This document shows positions 1,061 to 40,296 of a stretch of 64,000 nucleotides of DNA, piece after piece. The notes beneath the pieces were generated by a model. The model did not search any database, was not told where the DNA came from, and saw nothing but the letters and a program-made list of their open reading frames with translations. Source of the stretch: Selaginella tamariscina (lineage: Eukaryota; Streptophyta; Lycopodiopsida; Selaginellales; Selaginellaceae); contig PUQB01000279.1 in assembly GCA_003024785.1 (NCBI GenBank), positions 257,827-321,826 on the forward strand, written 5' to 3'. The position numbers were made by a program, and so were the translations under genes. The number at the start of each line of letters is the position of its first letter. Position 1 is the first letter of the stretch.

Positions 1061-2605
1061 ACTCCCGCCTTTGAAAATGTCAACATCCTTGTTGATGTCT
1101 AACTCCAAGACTAGATAATGTTAGAAAAAAATTAACCAAAATTAACATATCACTCTATGTGGAGTTAGCCAAAAGTTCACATAAGTTTTATTACTCCCCT
1201 TGCTTTATGCGAAACCAAGTACTTTAGAACCCTTGTTTATTGAGTTGTAAACCTAGCTGCTGGAGGCACCACCTGCGACATGAAGTCACTTGGAGACCTT
1301 TTGCACATCTGCAAAGTCTGTCACCCATTAATTTATTTACTGGTTAATTTATTTACTTAACTAGAATTTATATTGGAGGCCTCTAGTTAGTGTTGCTACC
1401 GGCCCCCCCTGGTTAACAAAAAATAAAGGCTTGCTTTATTCCTTATTATCAAAATGCTGTTGATGACCCTGTCATCTTAGCACACAACAAGACTTTGACG
1501 TCCATCTTAAGTGCTTAACCAAACACCTTCTTGTTTCTTTGATTTCCTAATGGTTTCACATTTCCATATGTTACAATATTATAACTTCACATTTTTGCAT
1601 CCCTTAGTGTTTCTCATTACCCTTTACATAAGGGTCTACTACTATACCTATCCCCATTAGTATATAATTACGTCAAACTAGGTATGAGACTTTATTGGAA
1701 TCAAGCTTTTTTCCGATACTAGAGTACTATTCCCAAAACCCTATTCTTTGTAAACATGTCAATATGGCCAGAGGCGATCACAGAGGCGCATAGCTATACA
1801 CATGTATACAACAAGGTCATGCCAACTTGCCAAATGCCATTCACTTGGTGTGTCATTAACATATTTATTCTCAATAGGAATCAAATTTAGTTAAATTTAC
1901 AACCAAGTGTGATAGCTTTACCATTCGTCTTTCGCAACCTAGCTTGTACTTCATAACACCGACTAGTTCAGGGACCAAATAAGCTAACATACCTTTCTTA
2001 CAAATTAATGTGGAAACTAGGAAATTCAACTCACCTCTAGTGCCTCAATCGATGACCTTTAGATAACACGTCTCTTAATTGTTATTCTTATTGTACTCAT
2101 TCCCCAAAGAGCACATTATACTAGATGCTGTTCAATACTTTCTAACTCTTTATTTCACTAAGTTTAAAAATACCAAATTTTAAAACTTAATTTCCACGAT
2201 AAGAGTTTCAATGAACTCGTAATACTTCATGCTGCTGTAACATTATATCTATTTCAACTCTCAAACTAATTAAATAAATGTTCCTAAACACTATACCGAA
2301 GTATAGCATTTCCACTAATTCAAGCAATTAGTGTTTTTTGATAAGCAAGTTCAACCTAATTCTTAATCCATAAATAGTTGCAATTTTGATATTGATACAT
2401 TTGAATTGATAACGATTGCTTTAACGTTAGTTCCTATTAGTTGTTACATTAGCGAATATGATTTTTCAAATGTATCAATTTATCGAAATGCAAGAAATGT
2501 AATATGGACTTTGGATTTAGTTGATATGAACCAAAACATTAGCTTTAAGACGGAAATATAATGTTACAACAGTATTCCGAGGAACTTGTTCAGAAATTAA
2601 GAGGA
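1061..2605. other. AT-rich noncoding stretch with small hairpins
   Basis: No coding region is supported. The sequence is AT-rich and holds many short imperfect inverted repeats, for example CACTAATT/AATTAGTG near 2313-2333, CTATAC/GTATAG near 2291-2306, and a pair around 2393-2406 and 2464-2477 (TTGATACATTTGAA and its complement). The texture resembles 17441-19385, so it could be an outward extension of the inverted repeat at 2606-2890, but I could not align the two. Confidence 0.4.
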
Positions 2606-2890
2606 ATCATGAACTAGTGTCTAGTTCATCTAACTGATTTTAGTAAGATATTATTTTCCACATTAATGTTATCATGACACCAAAATGCACGTTGTAACTA
2701 AGTGGGCATGATACGTGAAAATGGGAATATAAAATAAATTACTAATTAATACTTAAGTTTTAATTTTTTAATTAAATATGTAATTAAGCCTTAAATATTA
2801 ATTAATTAATTAATTAATCCTTCAATAACCTTACTTAGTAAGGAATATTCCTAAAATATCTTTAGAATATTCATATTATTCTAAAAATAG
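2606..2890. repeat. Left inverted-repeat arm of the large DNA element
   Basis: This block matches 17215-17440 in inverted orientation with conserved order and spacing. Shared pieces are GAACTAG (2611; complement 17423-17429), AGTAAGATAT (2642-2651; complement 17383-17392), GTTGTAACTAA (2691-2701; complement 17335-17345), TGGGCATG (complement 17325-17332) and an AAGGAATATTC/TTTAGAATAT section further in. The distance between the second and third pieces is 49 versus 47 bases. The arms are clearly diverged. No target duplication was identified, so the true outer ends are uncertain. Confidence 0.65.
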
Positions 2891-3202
2891 TTTACAATAA
2901 TGAAGAAATACTATCAAACATAATTACAAATGAAATCATTTCTTATCAACATGTTAATTTTTTATAAATACTTTCTTTCTATCATACAAAGAAATCTTTT
3001 CATTTTGTCTAAATCATCACTCTCCGGATTTTTTTTTGGTCAATATCTTGATGTTGTTGCCACCACTTAACACTCTCACGAATGCAATGGGAGTTGCCAT
3101 CTTGTTAATTAAGAGTGATAGAGAAGTCTGTATAAAGGCTCATCTAAAAACTGACGTTCCTTAAGAATAATATTATAAAGCGCCCGGTTGCTATCCTTCA
3201 TT

Positions 3203-4026
3203 TTATAAATTCAATATCACGAGAAAAAAAAGCTTCAGAAATGTATGATACGGTGGATACTGCTCACAAAAATTTTCGAGATTCTTCTCTCTGAGGCACG
3301 TATCCAAGTAGTTCACTAGCTCATCCATGATATCGGTATCAGAATATGGATCGAAAGTGATTGGATGAATACAAGCAATGTTTTGGTTGAGCATAGCCTT
3401 CTGAGGAGAGTCGTCTACTACTAAGATATGTGCATTCTTCGTTATCCTTAAGCGCTGATCTCCCCATGAGTCCCAATTATTCTTTCATTCTTGAAGAAGT
3501 ATGGCTTGCTTTCCTTTCTTATATTGTGAATTCGAGAGGTTTATGACACATTCGCTGGTCAAAAATCCAATCTTTACGAATCACCTCTTCTGCAACACTA
3601 CAATGTTTCTTAAGTAAACTCAACAGCGGTGTTAAGTTATGAATCTGCATACATGACCAAATCCCACAAGCGCACCCATCTCCTTAAGCTTTTGAAAGAG
3701 ACGATCCAACCCTGGACGAAAAATAATATCATATCGAAATTTACCATGACAAGGAATGAAATCTCCTTGTTTGATTTCTGTTTTTCTATCCTGGGGCCTT
3801 TGTCGATGAAGCAGAACACCATTGACATCCAACAACACAATATGGCCATGAGTAACATGAGATGCGTTGCCTCTTGAATACTTTGCAAATCACTTGTTTG
3901 CTCCCTTTCAAGTTTATCCGTTGCCACTATTTCGTTGCCTATCCCTTCATCATTTAATTGTACATCATCCTTACAAGATTCAGATATTGCATGTGCTGAA
4001 GAAATTGATTTCGGAACTGAAGCCAA
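3203..4026 (-). CDS. FCP1/NIF-like HAD phosphatase, frameshifted
   Basis: This reads as a HAD-superfamily phosphatase of the FCP1/NLI-interacting-factor type. Motif I is LLDVNGVLL (about 3838-3810); the usual second Asp is Asn, as is common in plant members. Next come an RPGL segment and a VGLWT-like segment around 3660-3640, KPYFFK near 3510, WDSWGDQRL near 3465, motif IV ILVVDDSPQKAMLN (about 3430-3390), and a tail containing IHPITFDPYS and LENFCEQYPP. The family dephosphorylates Ser/Thr or acts as a regulator. Frames change at least twice, so the copy is broken or carries sequencing indels. The true start is unclear and may lie upstream of 4026. It sits between the left inverted arm and the methyltransferase-like gene on the same strand, so it may be cargo captured from a host gene. 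Confidence 0.7.
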
Positions 4027-4397
4027 TAAAAATGATGATGCAAAAACTGAAGTGGCCCCATGGTAACGATGTTTTGAGCTGCATTATTATCCATTTCCTG
4101 CATGAACTCTGTCATTCTGACATGTGGCACAAGAAATTGTCGCCAAACCCTCTCTTACCTCATGGCAATGCTGAAAATCCATGTTCTCAATTATTTCATT
4201 ACATTTGCAAAATGATAATTAACTGACCTTAAAATTATCAAGGTATATTATTTACCTTGTTAATGTGTGACCCATGTTTGAACTAAAAGCTTCATTAATC
4301 CTTGAGAATTTATTTTCTGTACAAATATAAAAGAAATATACAAAAATGCCTTATGTTACACTCATTTACAACTATTCATCACTCTATCAATTCATTA

Positions 4398-7300
4398 TCA
4401 ATACTTTTTGCTATTACCTTCTGAATGAGGCGAAGAAGGTCTAAGCCGCTTGTGAGATGGTTCAAGATCTTCTGCATCTTCTATTGATGTTTCCATGGGT
4501 CCTGGAGTGTGCGAATGTTCTGTACTCCTCGAGATAACTTCCGGTCTAATATCTGATTGATGTTCGTTCTCAGACTCCGAGATTGAACCAGATTCACCTT
4601 CAGAGCTATCGCACTTATCTGGAGGGAACTTTCTCAAATACGCCTTTATGGATTCGTTGGGGTACTCAGTTGAGACCCAATCTATCCACTTGTTCAGGTC
4701 CTCAACCATGGTCTTATCCTTCTCAACGGCAAACACACATGTATGCCGAAGGTAAACTCCTTCAAGACGGACCCCCTAGTGCAGTAGTCAAAAACCCACG
4801 CATCACTGTGAGGACCCCTGATCAAGTTGACGATGCTCCGTGCCGCTTGACTTGTAATGTTTGGATAACGTACATTGCCGAATACGTCACTCATACCTAT
4901 CGGTGTATCGGATGGAGGTTCAGGGCCGTTGGAGTGCAAACAGATGCCTGGCCAGTCATTTGGAAGCTTGAAATTGTTTGGCGCATTCCTAACAACCAAG
5001 TGAACAACAGTATCAATGCACTTGGGATTAGCATCGTTCATATAAAATCCTGTCCAACGATGTCTATTCTTCTTGGCGAAGGCGAAGGCAAAAGTATCGG
5101 TGACATGAGCAAGAATCAAGAAATAAATACCTGAAAAAGTAGGTATCAGTGAAGAGCGCAAGCATGAATTCAATAATAAATACCTTCTATGTATATGCTT
5201 GCACGGCTAAGTTTCTCCACCAGATCCTCTAGTGCCCTATCTGTCGAAAGATTTTTTGACACCCGCCGATCCATCACGAACAATTGAAACGGTTTCCTAC
5301 AAGCAGTGATGTTACCCCATAAAGTCTCCGAATCTAACAACAAACATCTGTAGGGCTTGTCGTGATTCGTAGCATCCTCCTTTATAAGGTTCAATTCGGT
5401 TCTCCGCTGCTGAAGGACTGCCATAAGAGAAGGCGTCATCCCAATGTTCTCCTTTTTGGCGTTGGCGTGCAATAGATTCTTGCCTAGATCTTCCGATTGG
5501 TTCACCCATTCGACAAGCATATCATCGTTCGTCACATGCAAATATTTGCTAACCTCTTCATATGTTGAAGTCGAGGTCCAACCCAGTTTGTGGCAGTGTA
5601 TTCCCAACCACTCCTTGAAATGCCTGACCGTCTTCAACTCCATTGCCTTGAGATGAAAAGGAGAGGTTGGGCTGCTGTTATTAATTTGTAGTTTGCCATC
5701 GATCACCAAATCAGCCAAGACTTCCATCTCCTCCATCGTTGTTCCATTTAAAGGCTTCAACCATGTGAGCTTGAAATCGTTGTCTACATCCTTTGTAGAT
5801 TGAACAGACTTAGCCTTCGGCGTCTTACTGGGTTTCTTTGCAGACTTTTCTGAGGGCTCCCCTTCACTTGTCTGCTTCTTCTTCAGTGTTCCTTTTGAAA
5901 AGGATTCCATAATCCCCAACCATTTGGCAAAGATCCTATCTTCGGGGCAAGAAATCAACATCATCAGAAATGATGTTTCCTTCCCGCCCACCTGGGCAAA
6001 ATCAACTGCTGCAATTTCTTCAACTCTCTGAGGAAAAAGACAGATTAATATACCGGCGAGATAAAGCCCAAACAATTTGCTTACCCGGTATTCCGCAGAT
6101 TGTGTATTCCCTGCGGTAGCTCTTTGTGGTCGCTGAAGAGATTCCCACACGGCTCGCGTGTGTTTAAACTTCTCCCATATTTTGCTGTTGTAGTGGTTGG
6201 TGTCGGCAGCGTCCCATTCCGCCGATAACTTATGGTACTGCTCGATTGTGAGATTCGGCTTAGCTAAAAACGCCGATCTTTTTGTCAGCTTCTCACGGGT
6301 ATGCTCGGAAAGTTTTGTTGCCATCGTTCCTTTGTTGTGTTCCGAGAAGTCGTTGGGCTGCCGTTATTGTGTGCTGGCCACTAATGATGTAGTACTTGAT
6401 AGATCTTTTATTCTCCGTCTGAATCTTCATGAGTTGTTCTGGTGTTGTGATCCAGACTTTGTCAGCACCCTTCCTTCTTTCATAGTATGGACACAAAACA
6501 GCATTATGTGGAACGGTATAAGAATTGTCGTCCTTCATCTTCTCCATGAGCTCAGCTACACGTTCCTGGTTGAGTGGCCTGTAATTGAAGTTTGGGTTGA
6601 CGCTGCAATATTTAACCCTACAAGGATAAATCTTATCATCCAACATCATTTCCTTGTGACTTATTGCAGCATGAGATGCCACAGGTGCAGCTGACAAAAC
6701 GATTGATGATTTTCTTTTGCGATCCGAATCAACATGTGTGATCCCCGACTGCAGCTGTTCTAGTGTTCTCGGCACACTCTCCAGCTCCCGAAGCTTCCTA
6801 AGCAAATTGAACGTGATCTGTAGAGAACCTGAGACCGAGCCACCTTCTCAATCTCCCTTATGATGTCGCTGTGTTCTTCTTCAATGTGAAGAGGGAAGAT
6901 TGCTCCACTTGCTGATTTTCTGTATTGTGAAGCAATATCTCCTGACAATACACCTACTCGATGAGTCTGAAGATCTTCGAAGTAGACATCCAGATGGATC
7001 CCCTCCATAGATGGGCTTTCGTTGAGTTGAAGAAGAACTCCAAGGTCAACATCATTAGTGAACACGTGAACGTCATTATCCACAAGTCGACAAAACCACC
7101 CGAGATTAATGTTGTAACTGACGACCTCTGGATCCGAGAACGTGACATTGGATGGAACAAGGCATATCTGTCGAGCATCGTCCAATCTGGGTTCGCAGCC
7201 TGCTTTCGGGTGCTTGACTAGCGAATCTACTTTCCATTGTTTTGCTTGTCCATGAGATGTGACAGAGGTTAATTTGACAGCAACCATGGTTGCTCCAATG

Positions 7301-7520
7301 CGCTTCCCATTTATCTTAAAATATGGCCAAGTTGATTCCAGAATCCCCCTGCCCATCTCTTCTCCTGCTCTTGTCTTTAATGTCACTCAATTCCACATCT
7401 GAATACAAAAATGATTAGTTCAAGTATCCGAGTATAACAGATTTTATTTTAATTCTTACCCAGAATTTGACGACGACTCCATACTAATGACTCGATCTCC
7501 TTGTTTGATCAAATCGTCCT
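4398..7520 (-). CDS. ParB-like / N4-N6 DNA methyltransferase-like fusion protein
   Basis: A long minus-strand gene read through several frames. A short first exon (about 7520-7459) is followed by a 60-bp-class intron and a module containing GRGILEST (7386-6830). Next is a ParB/Srx-like domain (about 6640-6350): RPLNQERVAELMEKM corresponds to the ParB N-terminal helix and IISGQHTITAAQRL to the GERRxRAA box. A Lys-rich linker follows (5900-5800). A beta-class methyltransferase-like order comes next: FQLFVMD (about 5285; the expected DPPY reads DRRV), a 53-bp intron (5131-5183), then VFDYCTRGSVLK (about 4815) resembling the FxGxG AdoMet motif and FAVEKDK resembling the acidic motif II. The tail is acidic with HKRLR as possible nuclear signal. 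Frameshifts lie near 7385, 6830, 6310 and 4745. Known: bacterial and phage proteins combine ParB and methylase domains. Inferred: DNA binding and possibly modification of element DNA; activity is doubtful if DRRV is real. Confidence 0.6.
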
Positions 7521-7623
7521 TCTGCAAAATAATACACTATAAATAAAATTATATAAAAACGCACACACACTTGTATAAACCCGAATATACAAAAATAATA
7601 CACAGAGAGAAGTAGACGTAATT

Positions 7624-7710
7624 AACTGTCCGAAGCTCACATTTGTGTTAGTGCAAAAGAAAGATAACATTTCGTTTTAGAACCACCACAAATGTGAGCT
7701 CTGGACAGTT
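7624..7710. promoter_or_regulatory. 24-bp stem hairpin upstream of the ParB-methyltransferase gene
   Basis: The arms 7624-7647 and 7687-7710 pair at 22 of 24 positions around a 39-base loop. The shared core is GCTCACATTTGTG. It lies just upstream of the first exon of the ParB-methyltransferase-like gene, between that gene and palindrome array 1. It could be a binding site, a small inverted-repeat element, or a hairpin RNA source. The sequence alone does not decide. Confidence 0.55.
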
Positions 7711-7819
7711 TTACATAGATTCCTAGCTTTTACTCGAAATATTGATAAGATGATAAAAGTAAATAAAATGAGATATGCAACTTATATATACTAATACACA
7801 TATATATTCACATGGAAAT

Positions 7820-9660
7820 TAATCTCGCCACCCCTTCAATGCCTCCTGAAAGAGTGGGCGGGATTAATCTCGCCACCTTTCTGGAGGCCTTGAACGGGAG
7901 TGCGGAATTAATCTTGCCACCCTTCTCGGTCTCAGAGAGAACTGGGCAGGATTTATTTCTCACACCCCTTCAGTGACTCCAGAAAGGAGGCGGGATTAAT
8001 CTCGCCCACCATGTAAGGGATGGTTAAATGAATCTCGCCACCCTTCCCAGTCCCCTCCATTGGTATGTTGTAAACCTTCTACGTCTTAGACAGAAACGTT
8101 TGGGATTGGTCCAACTCACCAATGGAGAAAAAGGGAAGGGTGGCGATTCATTCCCAACAGGCATTGAAGACTCGGCGGGATTAATCCCGCCGCCCAGGGC
8201 CTTCACTCGATCCCTATGCGGCGGGATTAATCCCGCCGGACGCCAATTCCCTGCGCGATTTATTTCTCACACCCTTCAGTGACTCCAGAAAGGAGGCGGG
8301 ATTAATCTCGCCCACCATGTAAGTGATGGTTAAATGAATTTCCCCACTCTTCCCAATTCTCTCCATTGGTATGTTGAAAACCTTCTACGTCTCAGACAGA
8401 AACGTTTGAGATTGGTCCGACTCACCAATGGAGAAAACAAAGGAAGGGTGGCGGGATTCATTCCTCCAACAGGCATTGAAGACTCGGCGGGATTAATCCG
8501 CCGCCCAGGGCCTTCACTCGGTCCCTATGCGGCGGGATTAATCCCGCCAGACGCCAATTCCCTGCGCGGAATCGGGCGGGATTTCCCGCCGCCATTGGCC
8601 TGCCTGAAGGGCCTGGCGGCGGGATTAATCCCGCCCGATTCCGAGCAGGGCAATTGGCGTCCGGCGGATTAATCCCGCCGCATAGGGACCGAGTGAAGGC
8701 CTGGGCGGGATTAATCCCGCCGAACGCCAATGCCCTGTGCGAAATCTTGCGGGATTACCCGCCGCCTAGGCCCTTCAGGCAGGCCAATGGCGGCGGGATA
8801 AATCCGCCCGATTCCGCGCAGGGCATGCGTACGCGGCGGGATTAATCCCGCCCACCATGTAAGGGATGGTGAAATTAATCCCACCACCCTTCTCAGTTCC
8901 CTCCATTGGTATTTTGTAAACCTTCTCCGTCTCAGACAGAGTTAGTCGGGATTGATTCAACATACCAATGGGGTAATGAAGGTTCGGAGATTAATCTCGC
9001 CACCGGGTAATGAAGGTTCGGAGGCTAATCCCGCCGCCCTCTCGTAAATCATGCGCTCACACATATATATTGGCTGCGGCATTTTTGAACAGGGATGGGT
9101 GGGGGCGGGATTAATCCCGCCGCTTATATCCTGCGGAAGTGCCTGAGCGGCGGGATTAATCCCGCCGCCCTCCGCGAAGGGCATGAGCGTGGGGACGGAT
9201 TAATCCCGCCGTTCATGTCCTGCGTGAATTCCCTGGGCGGCGGGATTAATCCCGCCGCTCTACGACAAACCGAAGAGCGGCGGGATTAATCCCGCCGCCC
9301 ATCCCCTGTAAATGCCCTGCGCGGAATCCGGCGGGATTAATCCCGCCCATTAGAACCTTCACACAGGCCATTGCCGGCGAGATAAATCCCGCCGCATTCC
9401 GCGCAGGGCATGGGTGAGCGGCGGGATTAATCCGCCGAGGCCCCTCACGCAGGTTATGGGCGGCGGGATGAATCCCGCCGCTCTTCGGTTTGTCGTAGAG
9501 CGGCGGGATTAATCCCGCCGCCCATAACCTGCGTGAGGGGCCTCGGCGGCGGGATTAATCCCGCCGCCATGGCCCCAACCATATAGCGGCGGGATTAATC
9601 CCGCCGTCGAGGCTATAAACCTATAGCGGCGGGATTAATCCCGCCGCTCGAGGGGCTTAG
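7820..9660. repeat. Palindrome array 1 (GGCGGGATTAATCCCGCC)
   Basis: I count 15 perfect copies of the 18-bp palindrome GGCGGGATTAATCCCGCC, at 8174, 8220, 8531, 8618, 8704, 8835, 9104, 9149, 9239, 9279, 9330, 9502, 9548, 9588 and 9628. There are roughly a dozen one- or two-base variants, and degraded forms (GATTAATCTCGCC) dominate 7820-8040 and 8290-8330. Spacers are GC-rich, mostly 22-70 bases, and recur in both orientations. The block contrasts sharply with its AT-rich surroundings. Because the unit is palindromic, it creates mirrored short open frames (GGINPA, AGLIPP) on both strands; these are not genes. Confidence 0.95.
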
Positions 9661-9695
9661 CGAGATAAAAACACACACATATATATGTGTGTGTG

Positions 9696-9726
<31 letters not shown>

Positions 9727-10373
9727 GTATGTATAGGAGTGTACGTGTGTGTGCAAGAGATAGATAAATAAATAAAATTATACAGTACTGGTACACCTAA
9801 TATATGTGTGTACATAAGTATATATATGTGTGTATATGTATATCGTGTGTATGCGTGTGAGCGAAACAAATAAAATCATACAGATAAACAAACACACACA
9901 CACACATATTATACACAGGAGTGTGCGTGTGTGTGCGAAAGATAAAACTAATAAATAAATAAAATTATACAGATAAACACACACATATATATGTGTGTAT
10001 ATAGATATATAATCTATAGAGAAAGAGAGAGAGTCTGTGAATATATAAGCATATATATAAACTAGTGTTGTATGTATGTATATATGTATATAGGTATATA
10101 TATATGTGTATATGTATATTGTGTGTATGCGTGTGTGAGCGAAACAAATAAAATCATACAGATAAACAAACACACACACACACATATACATACACAGGAG
10201 TGTGCGTGTGTGTGCGAGAGATAAAACTAATAAATAAATAAAATTATACAGATAAACACACACATATATATATGTGTGTATATAGATATATAACCCATAT
10301 GAATATATAAGCATATATATAAACTAGTGTTGTATACTATTTGTTAATATGCATTGATTATATATATATATAT

Positions 10374-10409
<36 letters not shown>

Positions 10410-10715
10410 GCAGTGTGCGTGTGTGTGGGAGAGATAGATCAATAAAAAAAATTTACAGATACTGGTACACATAATATATGTATGTATATATGTATATAGG
10501 TATATATATATATGTGTATATGTATATCGTGTGTATGCGTGTGTGAGCGAAACAAATAAAATCATACAGATAAACAAACACACACCCACACACACATATA
10601 CATACACAGGAGTGTGCGTGTGTGTGCGAGAGATAAAACTAATAAATAAATTTATACGCACACTCCTATACATATATACATACATACACACACACACACA
10701 CACAGATCTCACCTG
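9661..10715. repeat. TG/CA and TA microsatellite block with higher-order repeat
   Basis: Long runs of TG, CA and TATG are organised into a larger unit of roughly 270-410 bp seen about three times (near 9829, 10095 and 10505). Each contains GTGTATGCGTGTGAGCGAAA or close variants, then AAAATCATACAGATAAACAA, then AGGAGTGTGCGTGTGTGTGC. Open frames here are low-complexity artefacts. Confidence 0.9.
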
Positions 10716-11312
10716 TGTGCACAGCCGCCGCCGCCGATTTCACAGCCGCCGCCTCTTGAAACCCTAAGAATATACCTAAACCCTAAAGGAATTAAATATA
10801 TATATTAACCCTAATAGAATATTCCTTCTGAGAATATACTTAAACCCTAAAAAGAATAAAATATAGATTCGCCCTAAACGAATATTCTTTCATTATATTA
10901 TTAGCGCGTGCGTGTGCGTGGGTGTATCACATACACCTCAAAAATATAAATCATGCAGGGATTTAACATGTGTGTGTCCATGAGAGTGTTAAAGTTTCAT
11001 GTGTATCAATACATACATACACATTGCATATATTAATACACATAATATACATACACACGTGTATACACACAGACATACACACATATTAGTACATAATATT
11101 AGAGAGACCGAGTACATATTATAGATCATGCATGGTGTATATGTTTGAGAGAAGAGAGACAGTACATATTAACATGGATCATGCATGATGTGTATGTATG
11201 AGAGAAGACAGAAAGTACACATATATACATACAGAGTACACATATATACATGCACACGTGTATACACACAGACATACATACATATTACATGAGTAAATTC
11301 ATTGTGTTACAT

Positions 11313-11343
11313 ATTAGGGTTTAGGGTTTAGGGTTTAGGGTTT
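11313..11343. repeat. Interstitial telomere-like TTTAGGG repeats
   Basis: Four consecutive TTTAGGG units with a partial fifth, the common plant telomere repeat. The run lies between the two palindrome arrays. It may be a repair scar, a microsatellite, or a functional motif of the element. Confidence 0.85.
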
Positions 11344-11599
11344 GCTCCCAACAAGCTTAATATAAATATTACACATGTAAATTCAATGTGTTACATACAG
11401 TCACACAGATTGAGTACATATATCATACATGCGTTGAACATGATGTTTTCAATAAAGAAGCAACCTATTTCTTTAGTTTGGTTTAGGGTTGTGCATGTGT
11501 GTGCATATGTGTTTTTGTAAGTTCTTGTAATGCGTGTGTAAATTTATGATTGTGTTTATATATGTGTGCAAAACAAACATCGAATAATTAAGAAAATAA

Positions 11600-12040
11600 T
11601 ATTAATAAACACACTAGGAACATATTTTAAATTATACATAATAATATATGATTTTATCTAATATATAGCCATATATAGTTTTAATAATAATATATTAATA
11701 ATATTGATAAAAAGGTTTAACATTGAAATATTCTTGAAATAATAAGAAATTAATTGAGAAAATCCCATTAATATATACAAATGTAAATTAAGTACTCAAA
11801 TAATTAACTAAATTAATTATCATAATCATGTTTAATATTGGAATATTGTTGGAATAATAAGAAAATAATAAAGAATATCCCATTAATATAAAGAAGATTA
11901 ATTACTCAAGTAATTAAGGAAATGATATTAATATATATATTAAAAACTATATATGACTATATATTAGATAAAATGATGTATTATTATGTATAATTTAAAA
12001 TATGTTCATAGTGTGTATTAATTTAATATTGATAATAAGG
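11600..12040. repeat. Inverted repeat in AT-rich core
   Basis: About 80-90 bases at 11605-11695 (containing AACATATTTTAAATTATACA) recur as the reverse complement at 11935-12015, with a third, direct-orientation relative near 12270-12320. The AT-rich arms can fold back. It could be a small MITE copy or part of the element's own structure. Confidence 0.6.
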
Positions 12041-12934
12041 TTTAACACATGAATATTCTTGAAATAATAACAAATTAATTGAGAAAATCCCATTAATATA
12101 TACAAATGTAGAATAATTACTGCAATAATTAAGAACAAGACTAATTTAATTATGATAATCAGGTTTAATATTAGAATATTCTTCAAATATTAATAAAATA
12201 TTAAAGAATATCCCATTGATACTAGGAAATGAAAACTAAATACTCGAGTAATTAAGAAAATAATAATAATAAACAGACTATGAATATATTTTAAATGATA
12301 CATAATAATATATCAATTTATTTATTGTATAAGTATATATTTATATATATATATATAATAAATATACTTGAATACTAAGAATGTAGAATATAGTCTAAAA
12401 TTTCGTAATATTAAACAGCTTGAATCACTTGAATAACATTAAATGCAATTTTAAAATACTCATTGGAACTGGAGAGTATATATGTCAGAGTGTCGGATAT
12501 TTGTGTCAACTCATCTTAAATTTTATTTTCTGTTCTTTTTAAAAAATTTGAATTTCTGACATATGTATTGTCGGTCTGACATGTAAATTTGAAAATGCAT
12601 TTAATTTCCCACTCAAATTCAGATCTGGTTCTTTCTCCGACAAGGGTTTCTTCATTTCTGTATTTTTCACTCTTTAGATCTTCTTTTTTCTTCATAGTGA
12701 TCATCTCAGGGCGAGATTAAATTGGGTGCTATTCTTTATAGAAAGCACGGCGCCTTCAGTGCTGTTTACAAGTAAGTATTATAAACAAATTTAAAAATAC
12801 TTATAAAGATTCACTCTCTTACATTTCTCTTAAAATTACAATTTAGGGTTTAGGAATGCATTAGGATTATAATATATTCCATTAGGGATTTATCCCGTTT
12901 AAATATCCTTTTAACTTAATATTCTAGGTTAACC

Positions 12935-13595
12935 GGGCCGGCGGGATTAATCCGGCCATTTCTTTTGGCCTCTTCGAAGAGGTGGCGGGATTAATCCCGC
13001 CACCATCTCCCGGGCAATGCTTCTCCGCCACTGAAAAAGAGTGGCAGGATTAATCCCGTCGATAACCTTCTCAACTGATGAAGAGTTACCAGAATTTATT
13101 AAAAAGAGTTGTCGGCGGGATTAATCCCGCCAACCATTTTAGGAGGCAGGGAAGGGGTGGCGGGATTAATCTCGCCACCACTTCCCTGTTTTAAAGATTT
13201 GGGGACAGGATTTATCCCGAGATCTCTTTGAAATCATAGTTTTGGAGAGAGTTATGTGCGGGTTTAATCCCGCCACCCATTCCCCGTCGTAAGAATTGTG
13301 GGCGGGATTAATCCCGCCGACTCTCTCCGAAGGGGTTGAGTCGGCGGCGGGATTAATCCCGCCGGACTCCCTTCCTCGTCGGAGAGAGTCGGCGGGATTA
13401 ATCCCGCCGGACTCCCCCCGAGGAGGAAGAGGCGGCGGGATTAATCCCGCCGGCTCTTCCTTGTCGGAGGGAGTCCAAGGCGGGATTAATCCCGCCGACT
13501 CTCTCCGAAGGGGTTGAGTCGGCGGCGGGATTAATCCCGCCGACCGTTCCTCGTCGGAGGGATTCGTGGGCGGGATTAATCCCGCCCATCAGTTG
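12935..13595. repeat. Palindrome array 2, 45-bp period
   Basis: Nine perfect copies of GGCGGGATTAATCCCGCC start at 12984, 13114, 13301, 13346, 13391, 13434, 13479, 13524 and 13569, with several decayed copies at 12935-13265. From 13301 the spacing is 45, 45, 43, 45, 45, 45 bases. Spacers alternate in orientation: the one at 13409-13433 is close to the reverse complement of that at 13452-13478, and the one at 13319-13345 recurs at 13497-13523. The array ends about 140 bases before the start of the DUF7869-type gene. Confidence 0.95.
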
Positions 13596-13728
13596 TATTA
13601 ATCAAACATGAGATATTATCTCTAAACATAATTATGTATTATTGCATATGCATATTATTAAGTAACCGTAATTCAGATTTCTTAGAAATATTGCATAAAC
13701 AGATATCATAAATAATACAATTATTTAT

Positions 13729-16700
13729 GTGCAGGACAATATGTTTAATACTGGAGATAAAGTATGTCTTCTTCGGAACAACGAGATAGTTGGCACTGGA
13801 ACTGTGGAAGTTCGAGATAATAATGCATCATGTCACAATATTGCCCAAGGATCTTGTGTGTACGTATGGGTGAACACCATTTACAAGCATGTTGAGGTTC
13901 TGGGAATGGAATTTGAGGAGGGTTCTCCTGTATTGTGGAATTTGGATGAAGTCAAGGCTGACACAGAATATGCAGAGTCACAAACAAATAGTAGCACGAG
14001 TTTACCAGATGATGGCTTGCCTGCTGTAATGGATGAGGTGATTCTCTTTCTTCGTGAGATTGAAGTCGGAAGAGGCATCATCACAGCTATAAATCCAATG
14101 GAAGCAGTGTCAGAAGAGAAACTAGGGTCCGACTTCGTGGGTGTAGTTGTGACAGAGGTTTCACCTAATGGCACATTGTATCCTGGATCCCTCGTGAGGT
14201 GGCGAACATCTGAATTAAGACGCAAGATGGTTCAACATATTCTGGGTTGGATTTCAATAATAACAACCCGGAAGAACAACTCATATTTGAAGAGGTTCCT
14301 TGCATTGGTCCTATTGTAAGAAAAAGGCGATTCATGGGTTGTAGATCTTCCCCTGCAAGTTTCAGCAAGAGGGTAAAGATGGATCCTACATCTTCCGAAA
14401 GTGTTACGAGCATTTCCACGATTGACTGTTGCAAGAAGAAGTGTTGTCAGATGGCAGACCGGAATGAAATTACCCAATGTAGACATGTCTTTCGTATGTC
14501 ACCCAAAAGCAAAGGCATGAGTTTGTATATGCTGCACTAACTGGGTGTATTGATGGAATGGCCTCGGACACAGGTTATCAGAGTACATCCATGGTATTTA
14601 ATAAGGTGGCCATCTGCTTCAAAGCTTGGTACAGTATATACGGGATCCCAAAGACCACGTTCTACCGTCGGAGGGATGAGTGGCTAGATGGAGCGCGAAC
14701 CTCAGTTCATGGGAACACTGGCTTGGTCAAAACCCGCTCTCACATCATGGCAGCCATAGAGATACTCAAGGCTTTTGTGGAAGCAAATGCAGACAGGATG
14801 CCTCACAAATGCCGAACCACAAATGCAGGGGTCAGGGAAAATCTCAAGGTTTTACCTTCAATCTACACTCAATTGAAACTGTGTGAACATGTGAACAAGT
14901 GCCTCAGTTTGATGGGGCTCCAAGCAATCTGCACTGGTACCTTCAACAACATATGGAATACTCATTTTAAGGATGTGGAGATTGCAAAACACTCTAGCTT
15001 TTCTAAGTGTGACACTTGTACATCATTGAAGGCTGCAGAGGCTTGTGCAAAAACCTTGGTGGAGATCACTACCATTCAAAGGAAGATGGAGGCCCACATG
15101 ATTGCACAACAAACTTGCCGGTCTCAGTACTATGCACACCGCATGCTTTCTGTGTCACGCCCATCAGAGTACCTGTGCTTGATCCATGACAAGATGGATC
15201 ATTCAAAGACCAGCATTCCAAAGCTCTTTGCAACACCAAAGTGCCTTGGAAATGTCATGAAACTTCCGATTTCATTGACAGGTGTGCTAACACATGGACA
15301 CGGTTGTGAGTCATATGGACACTTTTCACTTCCACATTGGTCTAGCGACTCCAATTTCACTATTGGGTCATTAGCCATGTGTTTCAGAAACCTTGAAGCC
15401 CACTCACAGACAAGTCCTATCAGTGATCTCAAAGTGAAGAAACAACACCTTCAACCTTTACATAATGCTCTCATGAACACGTCTGCACTTGAGGCTACTT
15501 GGGAATATGAGAGGCATTGTCAGCAACCTGCACAAACAGATGGCCCTGTTGAGAGTTCAGGTTCAGTGGAGGGATCTAGCTCAAATAGTGTACATGTGTC
15601 CTCAACATCAAATAAGCTTCCTCGTCATTTGCTTTTACAGATGGATAATTGTGCAGGCGAGAACAAAAATAGGTAAATCATTTTACTTAAGGGTTTCTCA
15701 AGCTCATACTTACTTTTATTTTCTAGATATGTGCTAGCATACTTGTCAATGCTTGTTGCCAAAGGTGTGTTTGAAACAATCACGCTCAGTTTCCTTATGG
15801 TTGGTCACACTCATGAAGATATTGATGCATTCTTCAGCAAGGTCTCCAACTCTACAAAAAGGACAAGTGCACTTACCTTACCGCATATGATGAATCTTTT
15901 TGAAAATTGCATCTCTAAAAAAAGTTGTGCTTTGCTTGTGACTGAGGTGCCAGACTTCAAAAAATTTCTCAAGGAGTATATAAAAGAAGGGAGTGATTCT
16001 TTAGTTGGTCACCTTGTGCCGCTACAATTCTTTTTCTCCATACGAGATGGTATACCTATTATGCAGTACAAGTTACGGCTATCAGAGCAGGAGTGGTTAC
16101 CGAAAGAGGGCTTAATGCTCTTCAAAAGTGGAGAGGATGGAAAGCCACTTCTCCCAAAAGGACAACCAGACCCTATTCCATTGAGTGCCCAGCTCAAGGA
16201 ACAAGAGGTTATTATTGATGGCATCAAAAAATATGTGGCATGGGTTCAAAAATCGATGCCAAAGAATTTTGATAAGGCAACTGGTTACTCAGAACTATAT
16301 AAGCATGTGGTCAACTATTGGGAGACTGTTGTTCGAGAGTTGGAAGGGCCTACTGTCACAAGTACAGAATTGTAACACCCTTTTGGCCTAAAACAAGGTG
16401 GCGAGAGGAGATTGAAATGACATCACTGAGCACAGACGACATAGAAGCCAGTAGTGATGTGGAAGTGCAAACCCCACATTTTGTTGGACAAAGGAACCAA
16501 AAACCTAAAGCATACTTTGATTGCTGCAAGGATCTTCAAAAACTAATGATGGTTCTCATTACTCCAGATGCGTCATATAATCAGCCTATTTGGATGGGTC
16601 AAATTATCGACACACCTGAAGTAATCACAAAAAATAGTATTGTTAAGGTTGCATGGTTCAAATCACAAAAAAGGCACACGAGAAGGAGAGCGAAAGATAT

Positions 16701-16852
16701 AATGGATGCCTAGAGAAAACATGGTCTCCCAATCAAAAAGACCCAGCATGTTTTATAAATGTTAAATCCATTCGATATGGGTGGATGTCAAGAAGCGTTG
16801 ATAAAGTCACGATTAACAAAACTGCAAGGGAATGTATGTTTTCTGAAGCTTA
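13729..16852 (+). CDS. DUF7869-type transposase-like protein, frameshifted
   Basis: An N-terminal module (13741-14240: TGDKVCLLRN, then VGRGIITAINP and GSDFVGVVVTEV) resembles the N-terminus of the divergent ParB-methyltransferase-like protein. A Cys cluster CCKKKCC follows (about 14428), then TGCIDGMASD and GIPKTTFYRRR (14640-14675, helix-turn-helix-like), CDTC (about 15008), and a core with QMDNCAGENKNR (about 15640-15672). A 54-bp intron (15673-15726, GT...AG) joins in frame to YVLAYL and FLMVGHTHEDIDAFF (about 15790-15835). The tail includes PIWMGQIIDTPEV (about 16590) and VDKVTINK. The D...HTHED arrangement recalls RNase H-like nucleases. I believe the family is the uncharacterised DUF7869, seen in plant and animal repeats. 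Frameshifts occur near 14240, 14515, 16370 and 16700. Inferred role: transposase of the surrounding element. Confidence 0.65.
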
Positions 16853-17214
16853 AAGCAATTACAAAAATAAAATATCATATATTAATATTCATAATTATTA
16901 TAAACTCTTTAATAATAGTACCAAATTGTATACTTAACTATATAAATTTAAAAAATGATATGGAAGATTGACTATATTATTAGGATTTTATATATATATT
17001 ATTACTATTACAAATTTTTAAAAATGTTATATTTAAATATTAATATCTTAATAACAACATCAATATTTATATAATGTACCTCTTATGCTCTTCCTTAATT
17101 GTTATATTAGGCAATATATTATATAATTTAATACATTCTACTTTTATAATGTTATTAATTTTTGTTCAATGAATGCTATAATTTATTAAAGGGTAGAATA
17201 CAAAATAGAATATT
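16853..17214. other. AT-rich tail of the DUF7869-type gene
   Basis: Very AT-rich with TATATAT runs and no coding signal. It probably holds the 3' end of the preceding gene and the inner part of the right inverted arm. Confidence 0.5.
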
Positions 17215-17440
17215 CTAAAGAATATTCTCTTTTCAAACATATATTCTAAAGAATATTCCTTTAATATTAGAAAATGCTAATTAAATAGCTAAAATTGCTA
17301 ATTATTAGGAAATGGGACTATAGCCATGCCCATTTTAGTTACAACTTGCATCAAAGTGCCACAATAACTTCATATTTTAATTATATCTTACTAGCAGATC
17401 TCCCCAAACATGAATAAGATATCTAGTTCAGTACATTGAA
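17215..17440. repeat. Right inverted-repeat arm of the large DNA element
   Basis: Reverse complement of the left arm at 2606-2890, with the same motifs in the same order. The best stretch is 17325-17392, where TGGGCATG, GTTGTAACTAA and AGTAAGATAT are kept at nearly the same spacing. Divergence suggests an old insertion or arms that evolve fast. Confidence 0.65.
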
Positions 17441-19385
17441 CTAAGATACATTATCCATTTAAACACCTAGCAATTCACATTGCTCGTTAAGCACCGTATT
17501 AAGAAATGCCTCATTTTTTAACTAACTTGAAAACACGTTTCAAGTTATAACACTAAGGTAGTGCCTTACCAAAGTGTTGAACTCAAGTCCGCTTGACTCT
17601 TTATATTATATGATTATGGCCATCACATGTGATCATAACCAAGTTTTGATATTGAGCGTTTCAAACTTAATATTGAAGAGATGTCATACCATACTTTGAC
17701 AAGTCATTTATAATTAATCTTGAAAAGATAGTTACATATTCTGCCAAAGTCTAACGTATGAATATCTCAATGATGAGGTGACAAGAAACCTCATATTCTC
17801 AAACAAGATATGGATCATACGTTAAGAACCTTGAACTATGATTACCAAGAAGGGACACCAACTTTTTGAGCTATTCACAAAACTCGATATCGTACTTTCA
17901 CGAATGTTAAAGTAAACTCAAGGAACACCACCAGACCTTGAGATAGAACTGACAACTAACTCAAGGAATATAATCAAACCTTGAGTCAAGAATAGTTTCA
18001 TTTTTTAATATTCCGAAGGATTGAAGATACATACTCTATTTTGTTCTTTATGTGCCCACATTTGCGACCATGATGCAAAGTCAAGAAATCATTATTGAAT
18101 AACTGTATTCGATTCTAAAATGAAATCGATATTGAAAACCAATATCAACTTCTAATTCTCATTGAATATTGACTCTTTGAGGAGGTACATGCACTTAAAC
18201 CTCCAAAATGTAAATCCAAATAACTTCCAGCTTATTTGACACCACCAAATATAACTTATTAAACTTAGCAAGTTTTCTTACTTAGTCAATAAGTAGAGTG
18301 GAGAATCCCAAATCATGCTCTTCTTAAGCAAGGAATCACCCTTGTTCAAGAGCTTATCCCCACATTACAAACAATATTACAGATTTCAAGATTAAAGAGT
18401 TAACAATGAAAATGCACAAGTGTGCGCTGAACGCCTTCACTATGCAAGTCCTTCATTATCAGTAAATTGAAAATGTAAACGTATGTTTCCAACATTACTC
18501 TTTTTGGTAGATCACGCCATCTACCTTGAAACTGTACTATAAGAAGCGGAATCCTTAAACTGTTATCCCAACTCTCTCATGATCCCATATGAGATACACT
18601 TTAAATAAGTTAGCAGAGTTAGCTAACTTGAATACAGAGTGCACGCTTACAACTAACTAAGATTTCATGTTATACTTTGTTCAAATCAAAAAACTTGAAT
18701 TTAGTAAACTATTCCACCTAATGTTACTTGTAGCTAGCGTCATTAAAATATTGCAAACATCGGACAATACTTTAATTACATTGGATCTTCAAACCCACTA
18801 CTTAACATATTCATCATATGTTAAATCCAACTTTTATCATTCCATAAGTTCATCACCATAGTTTGCTTTTGGAGTTACACTCTTAAAAACATGCACTATA
18901 ATGAGAGCTTATTTTACACCTTTTGTTAAAATGTAGTGTTCACTCTTATGTTTAAATATGCCCCTTCTTCCAAAATCAAAGGCACACATTTAACGTAAGC
19001 CTTTCCCCACTGAACACTATTGCCGAAACCAATATTGAATCTTGAAATAAGTCAAAACTCAAAAGACGTTGTCACATTCTCAATAAGTGTAAGCTTAGCA
19101 TATTACATGATCCACTTCACAAGACTTAGTTTGTAAGCCAGAATAAACTAATACGCCAGTCTTGTAGAAGTATATGGTAAAGTAACATGAACATTTATAA
19201 GGTAAAATAACCTGGCATACAACTGGAAGTTGACTTTCAAGTGTTACCTTTGACATTCGAGTCCATAACCCACACCCACTTACCAAGCGGATGTTCTTTG
19301 ATATTTACATATATATACCTTTAAAAATTTTAAATTCTCTTATGAAAAGTTTTAAAGTTTTTAAAGTCTCTTATGAAAGTTTAAA
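17441..19385. other. AT-rich noncoding stretch with degenerate hairpins
   Basis: No gene supported. Many short inverted repeats, such as AACTTGAAA/TTTCAAGTT near 17526-17548, GCAAT/ATTGC near 17470, ATCACATGTGAT near 17622, and AGTTAGC/GCTAACT near 18609. The texture is like 1061-2605. It may be an outer part of the element's ends. Confidence 0.35.
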
Positions 19386-29559: not shown

Positions 29560-30900
29560 CAATAGTCCAGGTTTTAGGAGCATGAACAAGCTTGGAGTCA
29601 AGAATTGTAGGATATCGATGATAGAACTTCGACAACAAGATTAGGAGCATGAACAAGCTTGGAGTCAAGAATTGCAGTAAGCGTCACTAGTCCAGGTTTT
29701 GCATATCACGTCAATAGTCCAGGTTTTAGGAGCATGAACAAGCTTGGAGTCAGAATTGCAGGGATTCGATGATAGAACTTGAACAACAAGATTAGGAGCA
29801 TGAACAAAGCTTGGAGTCAAGAATTGCAGTAAGCGTCACTAGTCCAGCTTTTGCAGGATATCGATGATGGAACTCGATAGAAATCAGGAACTTGACAACA
29901 AGATCAAGAGCATGAAACAAGCTTGGAGTCAAGAATTGCAGCAAGCGTCACTAGTCCAGGTTTTGCAGGATATCGATTGATGGAACTCGATAAGAAGATC
30001 AGGAACTTGACAACAAGATCAGGAGCATGAACAAGCTTGGAGTCAAGAATTGCAGCAAGTGTCACTAGTCCAGGTTTTGCGGGATATCGATGATGGAACT
30101 CGACAACAAGATCAGGAGCATGAACAAGCTTAGAATCAAGAATTGCAGTAAACCTCAAACTCAGCAACAAGATCAGGAGCATGAACAAACTTGGAGTCAA
30201 GAATTGCAGCAACCTCAACCCAGTAATTGTAACCAAAGGAGGTGGTGGAAGAAGTCGGCCGGGTTTAGAAGGAACATGATAAGCTCCAACAAAGGAACAT
30301 TGATAAGGCTCCAACAAAGAAACATGAAACTCGGCAACAAGATCAGGAGCATGAACAAACTTGCAGCGGATGTTGGTGGAAGCTTGAGACAAAACGTCAC
30401 ATCAGAGAGTCTCTCGATGATGCGAAATGGACCCAAGCGTTGATAATCCAGCTTGTCACAAGACGTGTGGTTGGCCAGCAACTGTAACTGGAGGAGGTGG
30501 TGGAAGAAGTTAGACGGGTTCAAAAGGAGCATGATAAGGCTCCAACAAAGAAACATGGAACACGGGATGGATCCGGATGGTTGGTGGAAGCTCGAGACAA
30601 AACGTCACATCAGAGAGTCTCTTGATGATGCGAAATGGGCCCAAGCGTTGATAGTATAGCTTGTCACAGGGACGTGTGGTTGGCCAACAACTATAACTGG
30701 AGGAGGTGGTGGAAGAAGTCGGACGGGTTCAGAAGAAGCATGATAAGGCTTCAACAAAGAAACATGGAACACAGGATGGATCCGGATAGTTGGTGGAAGC
30801 TTGAGATGAAATGTCACATCAGAGAGTCTCTTGATGATGCGAAATGGGCCCAAGCGTTGATAATCCAATTTGTCACAGGGATGTGTGGTTGGCCAATGAC
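29560..30900. repeat. Local tandem expansions at the integrase/chromodomain end of element B
   Basis: From about 29560 to 30190 a unit of roughly 70-140 bases is repeated several times; it contains GGAGCATGAACAAGCTTGGA, GTCAAGAATTGCAG and GTCACTAGTCCAGGTTTTGC. From about 30160 to 30900 a unit of about 205 bases is repeated three to four times; it contains ACATCAGAGAGTCTCTTGAT and GGAGGAGGTGGTGGAAGAAG. Both derive from the 3' part of pol: minus-strand frames repeat ILDSKL and AKPGLVTLA. Confidence 0.8.
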
Positions 30901-33900
30901 GCCGGAGGAGCCACACTTGGTCACCAATTGTGAATGCTGGAGGAGAGGAACGGGAATGATCAGTAGATTGTTGTTGCAAATCCTGAGCATGTTGAAAATG
31001 ATGCTGCACTTCTTCATGGACCTGTTGGAGATGCTCAACACAATCATCGGCAGCAGTGGTAAAACCAAGAACCACGGGCAAGCTGTAGGACCAGTGAGGA
31101 TGAACACCAGAGAACGCGAAAAATGGAGACACACCTATGGATGAGTGTGCTATGTTGTTGTACGCGAACTCGGTAGCAAGAAGGAGACCGACCTAATCAT
31201 CTTGCAGATGAGAAATGAAACACTGGAGATATTATTCTAGAGTCTGAATCGTGCGCTTCGTTGGCCATCTATTTCAGGATGATGTGCAGTAGACAGCTCC
31301 TGGTGATATGTAACCGATTTAGGAATCTCTGCCAAAATGCCAAAGTGAACTGGGGACCTCGATCAGTGACAAGTTCATCAGGAAAACCATGAAGACGGAA
31401 CACCTCCCGGTACACTAGATCTGCAGCATCAGGACCCGAACATGTCTTGTTGCAAGGAACAAAGTGCCCCGTCTTAGAGAATCAATCAACAATGACTAGG
31501 ACAGCATCAAACCCTCTAGAAGGCAGTAAATCAATGAGGAAATCCATGGTGATGGATGACCATGGCCGCTGAGCAATAGGAAGAGGCTGTAGTAGTCCAA
31601 CCGGTCGATGACGAGGAAGCTTTGTACGCTGGCACGTGTCACAAGATGCACAAATCTCTCAACATACACGCGAAGCCGAGGCCACCAGAACCCGTTGTAC
31701 CAGCTCGATCGTCTTTCGAATGCCAAAATGTCCTGCAGCTGTGTTGTCATGGCATGTTGGACAGCTCGCAACCTCAGTTCTCCGTCGGAACATAGATTTG
31801 GATGTGGTGGTACAGCAACCCATTATGAAGATGGAAAGCAGCATAATCTCGTAGTTGTGACCCTGAAGACAATGGCTGAACTCGTCGAACATGTGCAAGG
31901 ACATCACGAGCAAACTCGTCTTGAGGGAGATTTTCTCGGATTAGATAAAAAAAAGTGTCAACTGGAGCAGAAGAACGGGAAAGTGCTTTACCAACAACTG
32001 GTCGGAGCTCAGGATGACTTGTTCTTGTTGATCAAATCGGATTTCACCTAGTACTGGAGCTAGGTAACTGCGACAAGATAAGCATCTGCTTTGCCATTTA
32101 GACGACCGACGATGAATAATCACGTATCGGAACCGGGACAAAGACTGTGCCCATCGCCTGACGCGATTGAGAACTCGTGTTGTTGCCAGTACTGGAGGTT
32201 CTTGTGATCACAATACACCTTAACCACATGTGGGAACCTTCAAGGAATCTGCGCCACTCCTCAAAGGCATGACGATCGCCAGCAGCTCCTTGTTGTAGAC
32301 ATCGTAGTTGATCTCAGGTGCAGTGAACTTGCGAATGGAAAGCAATGGGATGGAGAAGATGATCTGGACCTTCCTGGGACAACACTCCACCAATGGCGAA
32401 GTAGAGGCATCAGCTTCCACGAAATATGGCTTCGCAGGGTCAGGATGGATAAGAACAGGTGCCGAGGTGAACGCCTTCTTTAGGAACTCAAACGCCTCCT
32501 CAGCCTCAGAGGACCAGACAAATGGAACATCCTTGCCAGTCAACTTCGTCAATGGCAATGCAATTTGGAGAAATCCCGAACGAAACGTCGATAGAAGTTC
32601 GCAAACCCGAGGAAACATGAACATCAAACATTTGATGGTTCTCCCACTCCAATACAGTCCGGACTTTTGCAGGATCCATGTGAACACCTTCAGCTGAAAT
32701 GATGTACCCCAGGAACTCGACAGACTGCTGACTAAAAGAGCACTTCTCCAACTTGGCAAACAAGTGGTGCTTGAAGCCTCTCCAAGACTAACCGTACATG
32801 CCGTTTGTTCTTCTCGAGTCTTGGAAAATATCAGGATGTCGTCTAGGTACATGATGACAAACAAATCCAAGAAGTCCCGGAAAATATCGTTAGCCATGTT
32901 GGAACAAGCAGGTGCATTTGTCAGCCGAATGCATTACTACGTACTCGAAATGTCCGTAGCGTGTAGGAAGCTATTTTCCACTCATCCCTTCTCGAATTCG
33001 GATGAGATTGTACGCTCCTCTTAAATCGATCTTTGTGAAATACCAAGCACCAGAAAGACACTCGAGCATGTTGGAGACGAGTGGGAGAGGATACTTGTTT
33101 GGAATGGTGACCTTGTTCAGATCCTGGCAGTCCACCACGAGCCGAAGACTTCCATCCTTCTTGAAAACAAAGAATACTGGAGCACGAGCCGATGATCGCG
33201 AATGACGGATAAACCGGTGACAAGATTCTCCTCAATGTATTTCCTCAATGTCTCCAACTTTGTCGGTGAAAGACCATAGGCAGAAGCTTTCCTTTTGTCG
33301 AAGACGTCTGCGAAATCGACATACTGCTTTGGTAAGGTAGGAGGAACAAGAACAGAAACATTCTTAGTAGAGCAGGGATAGACTTTGATTGTGAACACAG
33401 ACGCTGGGTCATGTCGGCTATCTTTCTTGAACTGCTTCAAGGTAATATGCGAGACTTGAAGCGGAGGAGGAAATTGGAACAGGATTGGAATCAAAGAGTG
33501 TGGCCGGAGTTGAAACAGTTAGGAAACTGTTCATGAAACGTTCTCTCCAACCAGGATCCACCAACTCGATCCACGGCAAACCAAGGATAATCGTAGAGTC
33601 CAGAATAAAAACAACACTATAGGAGATGTTGCACACATCACCGCAAGCAACGACCTATACGGGTTGTTGATGAACGAGATATCAAATCTGGAGCGGTAAT
33701 AAATGAACTAGGTCTTCAACGGATGTAGACGAATCCCGTGCTTGATAACAAAATTCTTGTCAATGAAATTTGTGTTCACTCCGCTATCCATCAAAGCTTT
33801 ACCAGAGAACTCTACCTCTTGCTCTTCAGTTGCACCAGAACATGGAACGGCTTGCACACCTTTGTGGATGGAATGGATCTAACATGTCTTTGATCTCGTC

Positions 33901-34477
33901 CTGCAACCCCAACCGGAAAAACCTCCTTGAGAGCACGATCTCCCCAGGTGACATCACAAGCAAAGAGTTGGAACTTTGACGTGTACTCTACTACCGACAT
34001 ACCCCCTTAGTGAAGCTGGCAGAGTTTGGTGATGGTAGCACTCTCATGATCCACGTCACTGAACATCGTCGTGAACCATTCCACAAACTCCTCAAAATTC
34101 TCCAACAAGGCTGAGAATCACGAAAGAGCAGAATCGGAAAGCAGCGACCCGATCAATCCAACCTTAATAGGTTCTGTGTTGTAGCACCTCGGCTGCATCA
34201 CGATTCGCAGACGAACTTGATTGAGAAAACCTCAGAACTTTGATTGGGTACCATCGAACTTTTCGGGCATGTTTAATCTTCGGCTCTAGAGAATTTGCAC
34301 GTTGTCAGAGCTGATCTCTCTCCAAGTGTAGTTGTTCAATATGCTGCTAGAGGACAGCAACTTGCTCACGAAGAGCATGCTCGGACATGATGAATCAAAG
34401 AAAAAAATTGAAGAAAGAAGAAAGAAAATGGGATCAATGACAAGCGGGAGCAGAAGCTTGTCACTACCTGAGAACAT
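30200..34477 (-). pseudogene. gag-pol of element B, degraded
   Basis: In minus-strand order: a gag-like segment with VVEYTSKFQLFA (about 34000-33960), a protease-end motif TIILGLPW (about 33580), reverse transcriptase with MANDIFRDFLDLF and YLDDILIFSK (about 32897-32820), an FLGY block and an RNase H start with FVEADAS (about 32430), integrase pieces (31771-31496) and a GVHPHW segment (about 31115). At least eight frame changes separate these. Beyond about 30900 the C-terminal part becomes tandemly repeated. Confidence 0.8.
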
Positions 34478-34483
34478 TCAAAC

Positions 34484-36721: not shown

Positions 36722-36737
36722 ATTTGATAGTAACTGC
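36722..36737 (+). promoter_or_regulatory. Candidate self-priming site
   Basis: Two bases after the 5' LTR, TTGATAGTAACT (36724-36735) is a perfect complement of AGTTACTATCAA at 43752-43763 in the 3' LTR. No tRNA-3'-end complement is seen here. Tf1-type elements prime reverse transcription by folding the mRNA 5' end onto such a site. Confidence 0.55.
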
Positions 36738-40290: not shown

Positions 40291-40296
40291 GACATC

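Follow-up and report, generated by a model that had tools for sequence, protein, structure and literature searches.

Positions 2685-17351 of a 64,000-nucleotide stretch of the Selaginella tamariscina genome (from contig PUQB01000279.1; hereafter the window) are one copy of a giant cut-and-paste DNA transposon that is repeated many times in the host genome. The element is probably a giant Sola-1-like transposon, with a transposase carrying the DUF7869 domain and a protein encoded on the opposite strand that would mark the element's own DNA by way of palindromes. An earlier note, made from the letters of the window alone, had proposed an undescribed mobile element, some 15 kb long and equipped with a DNA-handling set of its own. 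Mobility was borne out by copies, defined termini, 4-bp duplications, empty sites and a nested insertion; in place of an undescribed class, a DNA transposon with Sola features was found. DUF7869, a domain of unknown function, thereby gains a likely function as a transposase, together with termini and a target duplication. The limits of the element and its target are as follows (positions in the window):

2685..17351, no strand: transposon copy, 14,667 bp, ends fixed by comparison with copies
2685..2710, plus: left terminal inverted repeat, matching the right repeat in 24 of 27 alignment columns
17325..17351, minus: right terminal inverted repeat, pairing with 2685..2710
2681..2684, no strand: left target site duplication CAAA, equal to 17352-17355; a single CAAA in 3/3 fetched empty sites
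17352..17355, no strand: right target site duplication CAAA, equal to 2681-2684
1067..2684, no strand: left part of the target repeat, colinear with L089 (from 1067) and L090 (from 1100) at 79-84%, its last 171 bp with L088 at 97%
17352..18901, no strand: right part of the target repeat, colinear with L088 to 18901 at 91% and with L089 and L090 to about 18400-18450 at 82-84%

Copies, termini and target of the element

The host assembly searched comprised 300.7 Mb in 1391 contigs. Scoring was performed on 40 of the 1763 first-look candidates obtained with the left arm (2606-2890), and copy number is therefore a lower bound. All 40 matched; the window did so across the whole query, and the remaining 39 began to match only at query positions 68-80 and continued to 285, with 93-98% identity. 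The assembly thus contains the left end in at least 39 further copies. The seven left-end loci that were fetched all aligned inward to about window position 4376 at 95-97% and differed in their outer flanks, with the exception of L054 and L056, which share them and are near duplicates of each other. Other copies share 2685-4376 (7/7), the gene on the opposite strand (L078, L086 and L087) and 13.1-17.35 kb, with identical ends. This sharing refutes the view that two unrelated things lie side by side, namely a transposon ending near its transposase and host genes enclosed by chance between the arms; nothing beyond the frame breaks described below speaks for such a view, which we regard as extremely improbable.

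The ends at 2606 and 17440 given in the earlier note had to be moved inward to 2685 and 17351, in agreement with both the scored copies and the empty sites, and a search for duplications around the outer positions returned only 2-base matches because those ends were wrong. The left terminus was seen in all seven fetched copies and in further left ends. For the right end, 20 predicted stretches were requested and 19 obtained, one falling beyond its contig end; the terminus was present in 13 of them and absent from six (no match in L059 and L066, other copy parts in L064, L065 and L071, only N in L074). Aligned as an inverted pair, the terminal sequences ATGCACGTTGTAACT-AAGTGGGCATG and ATGCAAGTTGTAACTAAAATGGGCATG form an imperfect 27-bp repeat. 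The inner arms alone reached an inverted score of 71, a value attained by none of 500 mononucleotide shuffles (largest 70).

Left and right ends could be compared in 12 pairs. Exact 4-bp duplications were found in six (CAAA in the window, ATTA in C837, CAAA in C690, TTAA in C457, ATGT in C455 and TAGA in C14), five others (C453, C202, C697, C113 and C763) displayed a 4-bp match once one terminus was shifted by one base, and C749 displayed no clear match. Empty sites were sought with a 199-base query made of the joined flanks with one CAAA, for which 40 of 1390 candidates were scored; all 40 places matched at 89-96%, and 36 covered all 199 bases or all but the first two. The left and right flank alignments overlapped by exactly four bases in each of the three empty sites fetched. 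Additionally, one copy on contig C202 (L072:480-5230) lies inside the phosphatase-like gene of another; both its flanks align to that gene of the window copy, and the two alignments share four bases, ATAA. The element has thus demonstrably moved by means of these 27-bp ends, duplicating 4 bp of its target. The arm search of the full assembly and the alignment of copies, both suggested in the earlier note, yielded the exact ends and the target duplication.

The inverted arms with shared motifs, on which that note was built, are real in part. With 135-bp queries, each arm was the best inverted match of the other in the window, with a local score of 76 vs 49-50 for the best unrelated places and a background mean of 28.9 (SD 7.2, 1254 comparisons); slightly wider stretches scored 119, reached by none of 500 dinucleotide shuffles (largest 115). 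Only the inner motifs belong to the terminal repeat. The outer ones, at 2606-2684 and 17352-17440, are target sequence outside the transposon, and they resemble each other in inverted orientation because the target itself holds an imperfect inverted repeat (0/200 shuffles), whose uninterrupted form was found elsewhere. This target is a dispersed repeat; the imperfect inverted repeat forms its centre, which was matched at the 40 places scored among the 1390 candidates; the three fetched empty-site loci do not all cover the whole of 1067-2684 and 17352-18901. The refutation foreseen in the earlier note, that the arms are just copies of a small repeat, therefore holds for the outer half of each arm, which belongs to the dispersed target repeat, and not for the inner half, which belongs to the element. 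The inverted score of 80-bp flanks exceeded 200 mononucleotide shuffles in four of nine copies (window, C690, C455 and C14) and not in five, and a preference for inverted-repeat targets is not claimed because low-complexity flanks make this test unsafe.

The probable transposase and its neighbours

Three genes were delimited within the element:

13741..16850 (end approximate), plus: DUF7869 transposase gene, PF25273 E 1.4e-25; intron 15673-15726; frame breaks near 14240, 14500 and 16370
4398..7482, minus: orphan accessory gene, divergent from the transposase gene; codon model and third-position excess; frame-broken in the assembly
3230..4026 (limits approximate), minus: NIF/SCP-type HAD phosphatase-like gene, PF03031; frame-broken

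The DUF7869-type gene recognised in the earlier note was confirmed by its profile match, and its frames and breaks were set against homologues. It showed coding constraint over 13 copies. Among 65 aligned homologues, residues D195, D353 and D395 were kept in all and D192 in 64, and the predicted structure of a DUF7869 homologue has an integrase-like fold. Three of these four aspartates are the putative catalytic residues. The species-named proteins among 120 listed homologues belonged to Physcomitrium, a moss, and Riccia, a liverwort. It can be inferred with good support that the DUF7869 enzyme moves the element, and by this scheme it would pair the 27-bp terminal repeats and insert the element with a 4-bp stagger. 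No DUF7869 protein was found in phages, scans of viral contigs with the transposase gave no relative, and no paper on 'DUF7869' was found in the open literature searched. DUF7869-like frames were also seen on short contigs of two Bacteroidetes metagenome bins (L049 and L050), probably by eukaryote contamination; their neighbours were uninformative.

Near-identical copies (coding parts of L060-L077) differed by indels about as often as by substitutions, L062 for instance by four substitutions and three indel runs per 1116 bp. Such parity between close copies points to uncorrected long-read assembly indels and suggests these as the origin of the frame breaks in the window copy. Decay of this copy was also considered as the cause of all breaks and is weakened by the same parity.

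The HAD phosphatase of the earlier note held up as a NIF-type gene: PF03031 matched one piece at E 2e-4, just under the cutoff, and the joined frame pieces at E 1.1e-7 (32.1 bits vs a cutoff of 21.8). The region was found in all seven left-end loci, with a weak third-position excess (17/8/18 over six copies). The gene may be a captured or accessory passenger.

The orphan gene comprises a stretch with motif-level likeness to ParB (6293-6805) and methyltransferase-like C-terminal motifs. Substitutions were counted against three copies (L078, L086 and L087). By codon position, changes numbered 25/19/56 in the ParB-like stretch (third position 56/100) and 17/16/61 in the middle stretch 5170-6324 (61/94). 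The excess was weaker or absent elsewhere (N-terminus 33/79, 4694-5173 14/42, C-terminus 13/32), frame breaks blurring the figures of the last stretches. Coding constraint is thus shown for the ParB-like and middle stretches, which cover the gene only partly. With a codon model trained on the transposase, six minus-strand frames, five from the orphan gene (0.118, 0.152, 0.101, -0.045 and 0.065) and one from the HAD gene (0.098), each scored above their own two shifted frames.

A single open frame spans the N-terminal and ParB-like stretches in the C455 copy. The C-terminal motif of that copy, FDYCTRGSVLKECYLRHTCVFAVEKD, resembles by eye the SAM motif of beta-class methyltransferases, with a ParB-like box further up. 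The ParB-box and SAM-binding-like patterns each occur once in the six frames of the window, both in the orphan gene; they were defined post hoc, the second being widened to admit the sequence. The position of the DPPY motif reads DRRV, and therefore the enzyme may be inactive, if the methyltransferase resemblance is real.

Profile tests did not bear this resemblance out. No sequence match to a ParB or methyltransferase domain was obtained in Pfam, NCBIfam, PHROG or PDB. ParB_N gave no profile match up to E 5, and a shallow profile of phage ParB-methyltransferases placed the ParB part at noise level (11th of 784 listed frames and 5th of 100 window frames, with 6/150 shuffles as good); the methyltransferase part had no Pfam match, and 41/150 shuffles were as good against the phage profile. 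The ParB-methyltransferase-like gene of the earlier note thus failed every profile test and is reduced to a motif-level resemblance, plausible from a published parallel (PMC12477816). The codon-model scores do not suffice by themselves: 500 random frames taken from outside the element had a mean of -0.214, an SD of 0.158 and a largest value of 0.181, some of them scoring as high as the frames of the genes. A collection of 5.8 billion proteins yielded no homologue of the orphan gene among the candidates scored (7996 for a 950-residue read-through, 2025 for a 384-residue open frame), nor did viral-contig scans with three stretches of the gene yield a relative. Against phages and plasmids, tblastn of the ParB-like stretch reached only E 3-8. 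Its AlphaFold model, made from this stretch alone, was unusable (pLDDT 36).

Palindrome arrays and their possible function

The palindrome arrays and divergent gene layout described in the earlier note are present:

7857..9645, no strand: palindrome array A, 28 units of GGCGGGATTAATCCCGCC at up to 4 mismatches, 15 exact
9660..12930, no strand: AT-rich core separating the divergent genes, 27% GC; putative promoters and 5' leader exons, with predicted splice donors near 10714 (minus) and 12772 (plus)
12940..13586, no strand: palindrome array B, 13 units of GGCGGGATTAATCCCGCC, 9 exact, inside a putative 5' leader intron of the transposase gene, 12772-13734

The 18-bp palindrome amounts to 41 units at up to 4 mismatches in the two arrays, 24 of them exact. 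Outside the arrays, the window held no match at up to 3 mismatches and one 4-mismatch match at 49275; all 30 window occurrences of GGATTAATCC fall in arrays. Information content was 1.31-2.0 bits in unit columns and at most 0.60 in the flanks. Arrays also occur in other copies, their unit number varying: 8 of the 19 right-half loci contained 8 to 17 units at 0 or 1 mismatch, some arrays being cut by the stretch end. Array A is placed between the orphan-gene start and a good minus-strand splice donor at 10714; the leader introns and exons of both genes are predicted from splice consensus only. The exact palindrome was seen in a single place of a single contig of the viral collection (L001:146-163). 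About four head-to-tail plant telomere-type repeats (TTTAGGG) lie in the core at 11314-11343. The putative leader exon of the orphan gene has CCCTAA boxes upstream of it, at about 10757-10880.

The palindrome is a natural candidate site for the orphan protein. This protein is probably related, in a derived form, to the ParB-methyltransferase proteins that algal transposons carry as accessories. It would bind the palindromes in both leader regions and mark the element's own DNA in a form of self-recognition; marking would regulate both genes and keep them unsilenced, much as VANC proteins act on the VANDAL elements of Arabidopsis. A more specific version, in which a protein of ParB descent, its methyltransferase active site lost or altered, spreads from tens of parS-like palindromes in both leader introns and so marks and protects the element, is tentative and rather doubtful.

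Another possible explanation, to which we likewise assign a low probability, is that the palindromes are internal regulatory or synaptic binding sites of the transposase and that the orphan gene does something else. Arrays are found upstream of both genes and not of the orphan gene alone, and repeated internal motifs are bound by some transposon proteins, such as TNPA of En/Spm, which has internal regulatory or synaptic sites. However, the terminal regions are devoid of palindrome units, and the palindrome is therefore not an end-recognition site. It is also conceivable, if unlikely, that the arrays are structural hairpins in RNA or DNA, involved in leader-intron splicing or a replication origin or representing recombination-prone junk, with no dedicated protein. 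Folding of array B is much more favourable than that of 20 shuffled versions (z -18.4) and unit number varies among copies, but sequence is kept and not pairing alone, whereas hairpin formation by itself would not demand a particular sequence. Units might also be alike because the arrays expanded recently, but the spacers, which drift, would then be alike too. With the palindrome arrays, a concrete candidate site is at hand for the accessory proteins that, as others proposed, could bind and modify their own transposon, and this idea comes within reach of a direct binding assay.

Elsewhere in the window, fragments of Gypsy-type retrotransposons occur on both strands at 30600-40400, and protein-kinase and GUB_WAK domains at other places. 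Two further searches gave negative results: Foldseek against viral models returned nothing at E 0.001, and Rfam nothing at gathering scores.

Comparison with Sola and VANDAL elements

The element fits best with the Sola superfamily, as Sola-1-like, a filing made by features and motivated by the DUF7869 protein (integrase-like fold, invariant aspartates, coding constraint) and the 4-bp duplications. Sola elements range from 2 to over 15 kb with terminal inverted repeats of 11-1124 bp (PMC10741241), and the 27-bp repeat and 14,667 bp found here lie within these values. The 4-bp duplication was observed in end pairs, in 3/3 empty sites and in the nested insertion, and the invariant aspartates in a predicted integrase-like fold correspond to a DDD transposase. 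Plant Sola elements, Physcomitrella Sola1 among them, are alike in both respects, repeat and size being in the reported range (PMC10741241, PMC9033089).

A giant Sola-1 element with an accessory gene on the opposite strand is a combination already published for the brown alga Ectocarpus: Sola1-1_Ec32, 21.5 kb, carries a gene for a ParB and N4C/N6A methyltransferase protein opposite its transposase, and its authors suggest that such proteins bind and modify their own transposon (PMC12477816). Both are giant DNA transposons with a gene on the strand opposite the transposase. The present element differs in size (14.7 kb vs 21.5 kb), in its plant host, in its HAD gene and in an accessory gene that is not recognisable by profile as ParB or methyltransferase. 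Phage and plasmid ParB-methyltransferases (L002-L048) have, by eye, the same order of ParB-like motifs, DPPY-like position and FxGxG-like position, without significant profile similarity. What is distinctive here is the two arrays of an 18-bp palindrome: the main text on Ectocarpus has no word starting with 'palindrom', and no report of palindrome arrays in such elements was found among the open-literature listings searched.

The closest likeness for the arrays themselves is with VANDAL elements of Arabidopsis, which are MuDR elements (PMC12730594) and thus of another kind. Their motifs are arrayed in one orientation, whereas the unit found here is palindromic, and binding of protein to motif has been shown for VANC and is only proposed here. 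VANC proteins bind to short motifs that form arrays in the introns and upstream regions of the elements encoding them, and bring about a loss of methylation (PMC5735166). As in those elements, short-motif arrays of varying copy number occupy putative introns and upstream regions of the present transposon. VANDAL motifs are dense only in the element (PMC5735166, PMC10398659); for the palindrome, the 64-kb window searched here shows arrays in the element alone.
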